Source: Bryobacteraceae bacterium (GTDB lineage Bacteria > Acidobacteriota > Terriglobia > Bryobacterales > Bryobacteraceae). From it: a DNA stretch of 34,085 nucleotides. The notes under the pieces were generated by a model, which ran no database searches, was not told the origin of the DNA, and worked only from the letters and a program-made list of their open reading frames with translations. The position numbers and the translations under genes are program-made. Below are positions 29,262 to 33,023 of this stretch, in pieces (positions within the stretch are counted from its first letter, which is position 1; every line of letters begins with the position of its first letter). The stretch lies in contig JASHOO010000353.1 of assembly GCA_030041035.1 (NCBI GenBank), positions 1-34,085 of the forward strand, read 5' to 3'.

Positions 29262-30656
29262 ATGAAACTTACTTTCTGGGGAGCCGCCCGGACGGTCACC
29301 GGCTCCATGCATGAACTCGAAGCCGACGGCAAGCGCTACCTTCTCGATTGCGGCATGTACCAGGGCCGCCGCAAGGAGGCGGAGCAGCGCAACCGGCACT
29401 TTCCGTTTCCGCCCGGGTCGATCGACGCGGTCATTCTGTCGCATGCCCACATCGATCATTCGGGTAACCTGCCGTTATTGGTGAAGAACGGATTCAGCGG
29501 GCCGATTTATTCCACGCCGGCGACGGTGGATCTGGCGCAACCCATGCTGCTCGACACCGCGCATATCCAGGAGAAAGACGTCGAGTTCCTCAACAAACGC
29601 AGGCATCTGCGGGGGGAAGACGAGATCGACCCGCTCTACACCACCGAAGACGCCCAGCAGACTCTGCCCCTGCTCCAGCCGGTTCCTTACTACACGCCCA
29701 AGGCGTTCAGCGCGAATCTCAGCTACGAGGCTCACGACGCCGGGCACATTCTGGGGTCGTCGACCATTCTCGTGCGCTCGCGCGAGAACGGACGCGAGGT
29801 ACGCCTGCTGTTTTCGGGCGATTTGGGGCGCCCCAGCCTGCCGATCATTCGCAATCCCGATCCGCCGCCCGCGGCCGAGTACCTCATTATGGAGAGCACT
29901 TATGGCGGCCGCTCGCACGAAGAGGAGGGGCTGGTCAAAAACAAGCTGGCGGATGTTGTGAACCGCACGGCCGCACACGGCGGGAAACTCATCGTGCCGG
30001 CGTTTGCAGTGGGGCGCGCGCAGCAACTGGCGCTGCTGTTGCATGAACTCTCGGACGAACATGGCGTGCCGAATATTCCGGCGTTTGTCGATAGCCCGCT
30101 GGCGGTCGCGGTTACCGAGGTCTTTCGCCAACATCCGGAATGTTTCAACGACGAAACGCGGCGGTTTTTGAGCAATGGCAACGACCCGTTCGGATTCGAT
30201 CGCCTGACCTACATTCAGGAAGCCAGCGAATCGAAAAAGCTGAACGACCTGAAAGGCCCGTGCATCATTATTTCGCCATCGGGAATGTGCGAAGCCGGGC
30301 GCATCCTGCACCACCTGCGGAACAACCTGGACAATCCGCGGACCACCGTCCTCATTACCGGATATCAGGCCGCGGACACGCTAGGACGCAAGCTGCTGGA
30401 TGGCTGGCAGGAGGTGAAGGTTTTCGGCGAGCCCATGCGCGTGCGGGCCACGGTCGAAAGCTTGCAGGCGCTCAGCGCCCACGCCGATCAAGGCGAACTG
30501 CTGGCGTGGATGAAGCCGCTCGCCGGGACGCTGAAGAAAGTGTTTCTGGTGCACGGCGAGCCTGAAGGAGCCGAGGCCTTGCAGGCAGCGATTCAGAAGG
30601 AGTACGGAGTTGAAGCCGTGCTGCCGGGCTGGGGTGAGAGGTTTGAGCTCAAATGA
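29262..30656 (+). CDS. Beta-CASP metallo-beta-lactamase-fold RNase-like protein
   Basis: A 464-residue enzyme of the CPSF/YSH1-like beta-CASP group, probably a zinc-dependent ribonuclease. Metal ligands lie in LSHAHIDHSG (His61, His63, Asp65, His66), DAGHILGS, FSGDLGRP and VHGEPEGAEAL. Beta-CASP motifs are ESTYGGRSHEEE (A), VPAFAVGRAQQL (B region) and SPSGMCEAGRILHHL (C region), then QALSAHADQGELLAW. Unlike RNase J it lacks the long C-terminal domain. The ATG at 29262 begins the typical MKLTFWGAARTVTGSMHELE. No strong ribosome site is visible. The gene is divergent from the GT39-type gene and convergent with the small lipoprotein gene. Confidence 0.9.
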   Translation: MKLTFWGAARTVTGSMHELEADGKRYLLDCGMYQGRRKEAEQRNRHFPFPPGSIDAVILSHAHIDHSGNLPLLVKNGFSGPIYSTPATVDLAQPMLLDTAHIQEKDVEFLNKRRHLRGEDEIDPLYTTEDAQQTLPLLQPVPYYTPKAFSANLSYEAHDAGHILGSSTILVRSRENGREVRLLFSGDLGRPSLPIIRNPDPPPAAEYLIMESTYGGRSHEEEGLVKNKLADVVNRTAAHGGKLIVPAFAVGRAQQLALLLHELSDEHGVPNIPAFVDSPLAVAVTEVFRQHPECFNDETRRFLSNGNDPFGFDRLTYIQEASESKKLNDLKGPCIIISPSGMCEAGRILHHLRNNLDNPRTTVLITGYQAADTLGRKLLDGWQEVKVFGEPMRVRATVESLQALSAHADQGELLAWMKPLAGTLKKVFLVHGEPEGAEALQAAIQKEYGVEAVLPGWGERFELK

Positions 30657-30711: not shown

Positions 30712-30837
30712 TTAGCGCCAGTAGCCATAGTAGTGATCGTGGTAATGGTGCCAATAAGGATCCGGGTAGTATGTCGCTCTTACGGCACAACCCGTCAAGG
30801 AGAGAGCCAGCAACAGCAACCCAAGTGCTCGTTTCAT
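30712..30837 (-). CDS. Small His/Tyr/Trp-rich lipoprotein (41 aa)
   Basis: A short gene absent from longer-ORF calling. On the minus strand AGGAGG lies five bases before ATG 30837, an excellent ribosome site. The product starts MKRALGLLLLALSLTGC, a textbook lipoprotein signal with lipobox LTGC (Cys17), so the mature peptide is only 25 residues. The mature part is strikingly rich in aromatic residues and His (AVRATYYPDPYWHHYHDHYYGYWR), counted as 7 Tyr, 2 Trp and 4 His. It might bind metal or heme or act at the membrane surface, but no family is recognised. It is divergent from the hybrid kinase at 31071 and convergent with the MBL gene. Confidence 0.8.
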   Translation of the reverse strand: MKRALGLLLLALSLTGCAVRATYYPDPYWHHYHDHYYGYWR

Positions 30838-31070
30838 ATCTACCTCCTGCTGTGGTGAACGTAGGGGCACGCCGAGTAGTTGCCCGATTCATCCAACGTT
30901 CATGCAAAGAAATGTAAAGAGGGATGGAGAGCACGATCGGTTGGTTCAAATGACCCTTGTGTCACAATCTTGTGTCGGATAACGGCTGCACGAGCGTCAA
31001 CGCTGATTTAGCGCACTACCTAACCGTTCCCCTCGACGCTGTGATACCGTAATCGGATACAGTGCGGACC
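30838..31070. promoter_or_regulatory. Divergent regulatory region between the lipoprotein and hybrid kinase
   Basis: No gene is seen in this 233-base gap. It contains the perfect palindrome TTGTG-T-CACAA (30957-30967) and two direct copies of CTTGTGTC (30956-30963 and 30969-30976), 13 bases apart. TACAGT at 31058-31063 is seven bases before the kinase ATG and could be a -10 box of a leaderless transcript. A minus-strand promoter for the lipoprotein is not evident. Confidence 0.45.
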
Positions 31071-33023
31071 ATGTCCTCGAGTGCGCCGCTCGCGGACCCC
31101 GCTGTGGGGACGCGGGATGCCCGGAAAACGCTGATTCGCGCCGAGCAGACTCGACTGCTTTACGCTAACTCCAATATCAGCGCCGAGGTTACCGTCATTG
31201 GCTCGACAGCCCTCGGTTTGCTCCAATGGACGGTCATCGCGCATCCGGTCGTCGTGGCCTGGTGGCTGTACATGGCGGCCGTTTCGCTCGCCAGGTTCAT
31301 ACTGGCGCGGCAGTATCGCCTGGCTGCGCCCGCCGGCGCCGAGCGCTGGTGCACCTTCTTCACCATTGGCGTTGCACTCTCGGCTGCGGGATGGGGCGCC
31401 GCGGGCATCTGGCTTTTTCCGCAAGGTGACCTGACACATCAGGTCCTGCTCGCCTTTGTTCTCGGCGGCATGATGCTGGGAGGAGGCTCGATCCTGGCCG
31501 CGCGCCCGGAAACGTTTCTGGCGTTTCTCATCCCCGCCGGCCTCCCTGCCTCCGCGCATTTTTTCTTTCCGGGCGATCCGGAGCACCTGGCGATGGGATC
31601 GCTGGCCACCATTTTCACGCTCGCCACTGTGGTGAGCACCCGGCGTATCTATCTCACCATCAACTCCGCTCTGAACCTCCAATTTGAGAATGAGGATCTC
31701 GTCCATGCCCTGCGGCTGGAAAAAGACCGGGTCGATTCTCTGAACCAGAAACTCGAGCTGCGCGTCCAGGAACGCACTGCCGAGCTGAATGAGGCCGTCG
31801 CGCTTCTGCGTGAGGAAATCGCCGAACGCAAACTGGCCGAGGAGGAGCGCGGCAGAATCGAGATCGATCTCCGCCATGCTCAAAAAATGCAGGCCGTTGG
31901 CGTGCTTGCCGGAGGCATTGCACACGACTTCAACAATATCCTGACCTCCATCGCCGGTTACGCCGAACTGGCTCAGGATCTGCTCCCGAAAGACTCCGAA
32001 GCCTACAGCCACCTGGAGCAGGTCATGAAAGCGGCCTTGCGCGCCGGCGACCTCGTCCGCGGCCTGCTCATGTTCAGCCGCAAAGGCGCACCCTCGCCCA
32101 GTCTGATTCCCGCAGGCGACATCGTGACCGAGGCCCTGGAGCTGCTGCGCGCCTCCCTTCCCGCCACCGTGGAATTCCAGCGGACCATCGATCCCGATTG
32201 CGGCTGCGTTTTCGCGGACCCGGGTTTGATCCACCAGGTGGTGATCAACCTGTGCACCAACGCTTACCAGGCGATGTCTGGCGGCCCGGGACGGCTGGAG
32301 GTGGTTCTGGCGCCCATCGAAGTCAGCGCGACTCACCCCGCCGCGCACGCCTGGATCCCCGAAGGCAGCTACGTCCGGCTGGCCGTCAGTGATACCGGGC
32401 CGGGTATCCCCGCGAAAATCGCCGACCGCATTTTCGAGCCGTTCTTCACCACCAAAGCCCCGGGCCAGGGCACAGGTTTGGGGCTCTCGGTGGTTCATGG
32501 CATTGTCACCGGTTACGGCGGCTTCATTCGCTTCGAGAATCACCAACCCACCGGCACGACGTTCTTCGTCTATCTGCCGCGCGTCACCGCCGACCGGCCG
32601 TCAGCGGCTCGGGAGCTCGGTCCCGCTCCGCGCGGCGCCGGGCGTATTCTTTTCGTCGATGATGAGGAGCCCATTGCGCTCCTGGGCGCGCGCATTCTTC
32701 GAGATCTCGGCTACCAGGTTACGGTCACGACCAGCAGCGTGGAGGCCCTGAGCCTGTTCGCCGGCGCGCTCCAGGAGTTCGATCTGGTCGTCACCGACTT
32801 CGCCATGCCCAAGATGAATGGCGGCGAGCTCATCTCCCGGTTGAAACAGTTGCGGCCCGATATTGCCGTGATTCTGCTTTCGGGATTCAACGAAGAAGTG
32901 ATCAACTCCGAGCAAAGCCGGCGGCTCGGCGTGAACGAGTACGTCCGCAAACCGTTCTCCAGCGCCGAACTGGCCCACGCCATCCGCCGCGCGCTCGATC
33001 CTGTGCATCCGCCCGGCGCGTAA
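31071..33023 (+). CDS. Hybrid membrane histidine kinase with receiver domain
   Basis: A 650-residue hybrid kinase. Residues about 40-200 form an integral membrane sensor of six or so helices with the pattern W-x-x-F-x-x-G...[11 protein letters not shown] and an [16 protein letters not shown] segment. Such domains are fused to various kinases and GGDEF proteins. A coiled coil (about 215-265) leads to the phospho-acceptor His285 in [12 protein letters not shown], a HisKA type common in NtrB-like and hybrid kinases. The ATPase domain has [19 protein letters not shown] and [11 protein letters not shown]. The C-terminal receiver has Asp576 in [12 protein letters not shown], the upstream acidic pair FVDDEE and Lys in VRKPFS. 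There is no output domain and no regulator gene nearby. ATG 31071 is preferred over GTG 31062. Confidence 0.92.

Follow-up and report, generated by a model that had tools for sequence, protein, structure and literature searches.

A 41-residue lipoprotein gene from a Bryobacteraceae bacterium, probably a repeat-less relative of the WXXGXW lipoproteins that shares their ECF-type promoter

The mini lipoprotein gene and its features

The window analysed here, a stretch of 34,085 nucleotides from the genome of a Bryobacteraceae bacterium (G000, 6.85 Mb), carries a very small lipoprotein gene, hereafter called the mini. Two other genomes of the genus, G001 and G002, were examined alongside it. The features of the gene and of the DNA upstream of it are as follows.

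30712-30837, minus strand: coding sequence of the mini lipoprotein, 41 residues, stop codon included in the coordinates; translation MKRALGLLLLALSLTGCAVRATYYPDPYWHHYHDHYYGYWR-stop; orthologues in G001 and G002
30790-30837, minus strand: predicted signal peptide, residues 1-16, with LTG just before the lipobox Cys; read from the sequence, LTGCAVRA being invariant in the three orthologues
30715-30789, minus strand: predicted mature peptide of 25 residues from Cys17, with conserved CAVRA-x-YY, a W and terminal WR; from the orthologue alignment and the C-terminal profile test
30843-30848, minus strand: Shine-Dalgarno sequence AGGAGG; read from the sequence, the same in the orthologues
30858-30862, minus strand: -10-like element ACGTT; from pattern searches and comparison of upstream DNA
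30879-30883, minus strand: -35-like element GCAAC, with a 16-base spacer to the -10 element; from the same searches and comparison
30884-30904, minus strand: upstream box CATGAAC-N4-GATGAAT, which has diverged from the ATTAAC..TTCAG/ATGAA box shared by the proposed regulon and has no exact TTAA

Five bases separate AGGAGG from the ATG, and the N-terminus has the charged n-region, the hydrophobic stretch and the lipobox ([LVI][ASTG][GA]C) of a type II signal, MKRALGLLLLALSLTGC. Searches with Pfam and NCBIfam returned only sub-threshold signal-peptide matches, the Pfam model LPAM_1 scoring 14.6 bits against a cut-off of 20. Short models such as LPAM_1 miss many lipoproteins. Three models of small lipoproteins were rejected as identifications since they matched in the signal part only: LptM (12.6 bits, NF047847 cut-off 27.7), entericidin A (14.3 bits for the G002 mini, cut-off 86) and RcsF.

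A protein search of 121 genomes, namely the source genome and 120 relatives, gave four matches at E<=0.01. They are the gene itself, its orthologues in G001 and G002 (51 and 50 residues, respectively, the latter on contig JAIQFK010000024.1), and a chance match inside an open frame of 1349 residues. Two further protein-search matches (L002 and L005) also lie inside longer open frames and were set aside as chance. Orthologues are thus present in both of the other genus genomes examined. Alignment of the three minis shows that they have in common MKRAL, LTGCAVRA, YY, a W, a Y and a terminal WR. A profile built from the three minis was searched against 237 family genomes; it brought up no additional mini gene at a comparable score, its next-best match being the N-terminus of a longer G002 protein (E=1.1e-5), discussed below. 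One similar start was rejected as a relative because the promoter described below is absent: an 84-residue lipoprotein of G131 (L022:1239-1490; TGCAVRTGYY...YWNWRHDHP), which represents a different aromatic-rich lipoprotein family.

As both other genus genomes hold an orthologue with the same Shine-Dalgarno context and conserved motifs, and as an upstream element is shared, the open reading frame does not look like a chance one, and from its sequence we take the gene to be real. This upholds, on the minus strand, the preliminary description of a small lipoprotein gene with AGGAGG, signal and lipobox, the last being LTGC in all three species. That description had made its case depend on orthologues keeping both lipobox and tail: the lipobox is kept, and so are YY, W and the terminal WR of the tail, whereas the rest of the tail differs.

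Kinship with long WXXGXW lipoproteins

The longer G002 protein and its counterpart in the source genome (C739:5141-5431) are 70% identical lipoproteins of 97-98 residues with WXXGXW repeats. Both start with MKR, contain ..GCA...YY and end in ..RGHWR. Two long relatives match PF12779 at 37.5 and 32.7 bits (cut-off 18). The shared start can be seen within G002 by comparing the long protein, MKRALLVPALAMFFLAGCAVHAGYY, with the mini, MKRALLLVLVALSLTGCAVRAGYY, and in the reciprocal search the long protein of G002 matches the mini of the same genome at E=0.018.

At the C-terminus, the last 26 residues of the G001 mini align to the end of the long profile, where the final repeat and the tail lie (RPRAHWVNGR...DRWR against raravWvagew...GhWr). 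When the profile was limited to the C-terminal 26 residues of 27 long proteins, shuffled mini tails scored as high in 0 of 1000 cases for G001, 9 of 1000 for G002 and 28 of 1000 for G000; with the full long profile, the figures were 2, 0 and 203 of 1000, respectively. Homology to the WXXGXW lipoproteins is therefore indicated by N-terminus, C-terminus and promoter, the C-terminal part being clear in G001 and weak in G000. Two observations weigh against it, namely this weak link of the G000 mini to the long profile and the failure of all three minis to match PF12779. In addition, the N-terminal likeness of lipoprotein signals can be convergent.

The best reading of these comparisons is that the mini is a shortened, repeat-less relative of the lipoproteins of about 100 residues that carry WXXGXW repeats (PF12779). 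In the simplest case, an internal deletion would have taken out the Pro-rich linker and the central repeats, after which the tail diverged; a duplication would have come first, and the linker and first repeats would then have been lost. Elsewhere in the family, L110 encodes an 84-residue WXXGXW lipoprotein whose repeat region is shortened, which suggests that repeats have been lost there too. L113 and L114 encode Tyr/Pro-rich exported proteins that end in WR and have the same promoter and, with L110, are further size variants of the theme.

The strongest alternative, although fairly unlikely, is that the mini is a decaying paralogue which, after its internal deletion, is still transcribed and exported while its tail drifts without function. 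The three tails differ greatly in length and composition, their homology to the long C-terminus fades from G001 through G002 to G000, and an intact long copy exists alongside the mini in G000 and G002. Codon differences over the first 24 codons cut both ways: the synonymous and non-synonymous changes, 9 and 4 between G000 and G002 and 12 and 7 between G000 and G001, lend support to selection on the protein, whereas those between G002 and G001 (7 and 8) do not and are what decay would give. Against decay, however, promoter, Shine-Dalgarno sequence, signal, LTGCAVRA, YY and the terminal WR followed by the stop are kept in all three species, the minis are free of frameshifts and premature stops, and G001 has a mini while no long lipoprotein with the shared promoter was seen in that genome.

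A shared promoter and its specificity

The DNA upstream of the minis and of the long genes follows a common plan: ATTAAC, then TTCAG or ATGAA 10-11 bases on, GCAAC, 16 variable bases, GCGTT or ACGTT, and the ATG 19-28 bases further. The promoter common to mini and long lipoproteins can be written GCAAC-N16-RCGTTY-N8-AGGAGG. In the whole 6.85-Mb source genome, the pattern GCAAC-N16-RCGTTY-N8-AGGA occurs at exactly two sites, one before the mini and one before the long gene, against none in a reversed control.

The association does not depend on having searched for the promoter. Among 33 lipoproteins compared for their -35/-10 pair, 16 had been found via the promoter itself and were excluded; of the remaining 17 WXXGXW lipoproteins, the pair is perfect in 11 (in one of them with a spacer of 15 bases), has one mismatch in two, two mismatches in three and four in one. 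Under the same scoring, none of 65 other genes in the loci compared has a perfect pair and two have one mismatch. Taken by itself, the -35/-10 pair is close to chance level: three genomes contain 51 sites, the reversed control 32. Among the 31 of these 51 sites that were inspected, an ATG stands at the right distance only for the two before long lipoproteins.

The element thus has AAC at -35, CGT at -10 and a constant spacing before the gene. AAC and CGT at these positions are hallmarks of promoters read by ECF sigma factors (PMC8103513, PMC4153023). The box upstream of GCAAC, other copies of which are found at L016, L051, L105 and further lipoprotein loci, may bind an activator or belong to the region that the sigma factor contacts. 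A phylum-wide search placed the element in one of 396 genomes, the source genome itself; outside the family it was not seen with this pattern, which required at least nine bases before AGGA, in a sample containing three genomes of the family.

The proposed regulon across the family

PF12779 matches were found in 137 of the 237 family genomes, a count that covers all proteins with the domain and not only lipoproteins. Two patterns were searched in these 237 genomes, with control counts that are summed table columns. The first, TTAA-N11-17-GCAAC-N16-GCGTTY, gave 43 sites against 26 in the reversed control. The genes behind them comprise 26 encoding WXXGXW proteins, one masked paralogue, the G002 mini and two encoding Tyr/Pro-rich exported proteins ending in WR; one more site stands before another open reading frame 56 bases away, and 12 are without one. 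The second pattern omits TTAA and includes AGGAG; it gave 80 sites (81 rows) against 25 in the control, reduced to 78 distinct 32-mers. An open reading frame lies directly behind the Shine-Dalgarno sequence at 44 of the 78 and at none of the other 34, so the bare pattern is partly noise. On the lipoprotein side the 44 frames include 20 WXXGXW lipoproteins and a masked one, the three minis, one exported WXXGXW protein and one Tyr/Pro-rich protein. The others are three LTXXQ proteins from three genera and two BON proteins from one genus, all above the Pfam cut-offs, and 13 of various kinds; three of these 13 are zf-HC2-type proteins whose site apparently lies in the coding end of the preceding gene (one of the three was tested).

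The TTAA box, which the second search did not require, is present at 19 of the 24 lipoprotein sites against 2 of the 54 others. This box, with its two halves (ATTAAC and TTCAG or ATGAA) spaced by 10-11 bases, favours another view of the shared element, as an operator or a promoter of a different type, for example a housekeeping-sigma start combined with a direct repeat for a response regulator. We regard that as unlikely, since the spacing between GCAAC and GCGTT is nearly fixed at 16 bases around a variable middle, the pair lies 19-28 bases before the ATG, and AAC with CGT is the ECF signature (PMC8103513).

LTXXQ genes (CpxP/Spy-like) and BON genes with GCAAC-N16-RCGTTY were observed in four genera (L198:1550-2047, L216:146-616, L220:112-588, L218:60-593 and L219:60-593), and their sites mostly lack the upstream box. 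LTXXQ proteins (CpxP/Spy) and BON proteins (OsmY-like) are known envelope-stress proteins. These sites suggest a wider envelope-stress regulon, and together with the ECF hallmarks they make an ECF envelope-stress regulon the best-supported explanation.

Taken together, the mini is probably a repeat-less version of the WXXGXW lipoproteins that shares with them an ECF-type promoter (GCAAC-N16-[GA]CGTT) and an upstream box. We infer a sigma factor for this promoter: envelope stress would free an ECF sigma factor, which would then transcribe the mini together with its long paralogue. The product would be exported and lipidated at Cys17, and, given that Ala and not Asp follows the Cys, its destination would be the outer membrane, on the inner face. 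There, at a guess, this short lipid-anchored protein might act together with the long lipoprotein, or compete with it, through CAVRA-x-YY and the terminal WR. In a bolder and improbable version, the family would have a dedicated ECF regulon of small size, centred on a single class of lipoproteins. The mini, carrying the C-terminal WR conserved in the long protein, would be the feedback part of this regulon: it would either compete with the long protein or inform the protease that liberates the sigma factor about lipoprotein traffic to the outer membrane.

The tail and the neighbouring genes

As the preliminary description had it, about half of the mature peptide in the source genome consists of Tyr, Trp and His (13 of 25 residues: seven Y, two W and four H). 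It had also proposed that such a lipid-anchored peptide could bind metals, heme or sugars; binding through this tail is made very doubtful by the orthologues. Their tails are rich in Arg and Asp instead, Y, W, H and F making up 10 of 34 and 9 of 35 residues in the two, and the positions of His and of the aromatic residues are not conserved. The high aromatic and His share is thus limited to the source species, the extreme tail is not a conserved feature, and binding through it is not favoured.

The neighbours differ as well. In the window, the mini is divergent from a hybrid histidine kinase gene at 31062-33023. Positions 29262-30656 encode a single beta-CASP metallo-beta-lactamase RNase; among NCBIfam models it scores best with the type VII CRISPR Cas14 (406 bits, cut-off 800) and next with aCPSF1 (278). 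In G002 the mini sits between an ORF of 334 residues and an M16-peptidase gene, and in G001 an ECF sigma gene on the same strand precedes it at a distance of about 770 bases. The proposal that the mini is a ligand, inhibitor or reporter of the kinase, for which the divergent arrangement speaks, can be dismissed as extremely unlikely, the link not being conserved: the orthologues have other neighbours, and kinase residues 1-279 found no match at E<=1e-5 in either G001 or G002, so that one of the three genus genomes, the source itself, has this region.

The ECF sigma gene beside the G001 mini is a candidate regulator, unproven as such; the GCAAC-N16-CGTT site was not found in the 200 bp upstream of it. 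In the same region (L004:1216-2183) it is followed by an ORF of 91 residues, without a family match, that could encode an anti-sigma factor.

Relation to known systems and significance

The minis resemble the WXXGXW lipoproteins (PF12779; 'YXWGXW') in N-terminus, lipobox, promoter and terminal ..WR, and the G001 mini retains the last WVxGR block; they differ in having neither the Pro-rich linker nor the two central repeats, and in not matching PF12779. With LptM, entericidin and other short outer-membrane lipoproteins, the mini has in common a signal, a lipobox and a tail some tens of residues long. Another small lipoprotein, BcpO of the Burkholderia CDI loci (NF037971), gives 25-27 bits with two long WXXGXW relatives, below the 80-bit cut-off, and no match at all with the minis. 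In Burkholderia thailandensis, full CDI requires BcpO, a lipoprotein whose predicted location is the inner face of the outer membrane (PMC3415462). Judged by these scores, the similarity of the long relatives to BcpO is a lead rather than membership.

As for the promoter, several features set this regulon apart from the EcfG type. The -35 element of EcfG-type promoters is GGAAC. Here it is GCAAC, an additional upstream box is present, and the target set is very small. AAC at -35 and CGTT at -10, on the other hand, are as in EcfG-type regulons (PMC8103513).

In the open literature searched, no functional work on WXXGXW or YXWGXW proteins was found under those names, nor any report joining Acidobacteria, Solibacter, an ECF sigma factor and a lipoprotein; PF12779/WXXGXW appears as a table row without a template in PMC8078820. 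The mini gene is modest in itself, and the informative part is its promoter and its kinship. An ORF of 41 residues that no protein model recognises can thus be placed by the sequence of its promoter. Through this shared promoter, an orphan family of repeat proteins and its mini become a testable regulon, joined in a few genomes by LTXXQ and BON periplasmic proteins, and a first functional hint is gained, which would be envelope stress.
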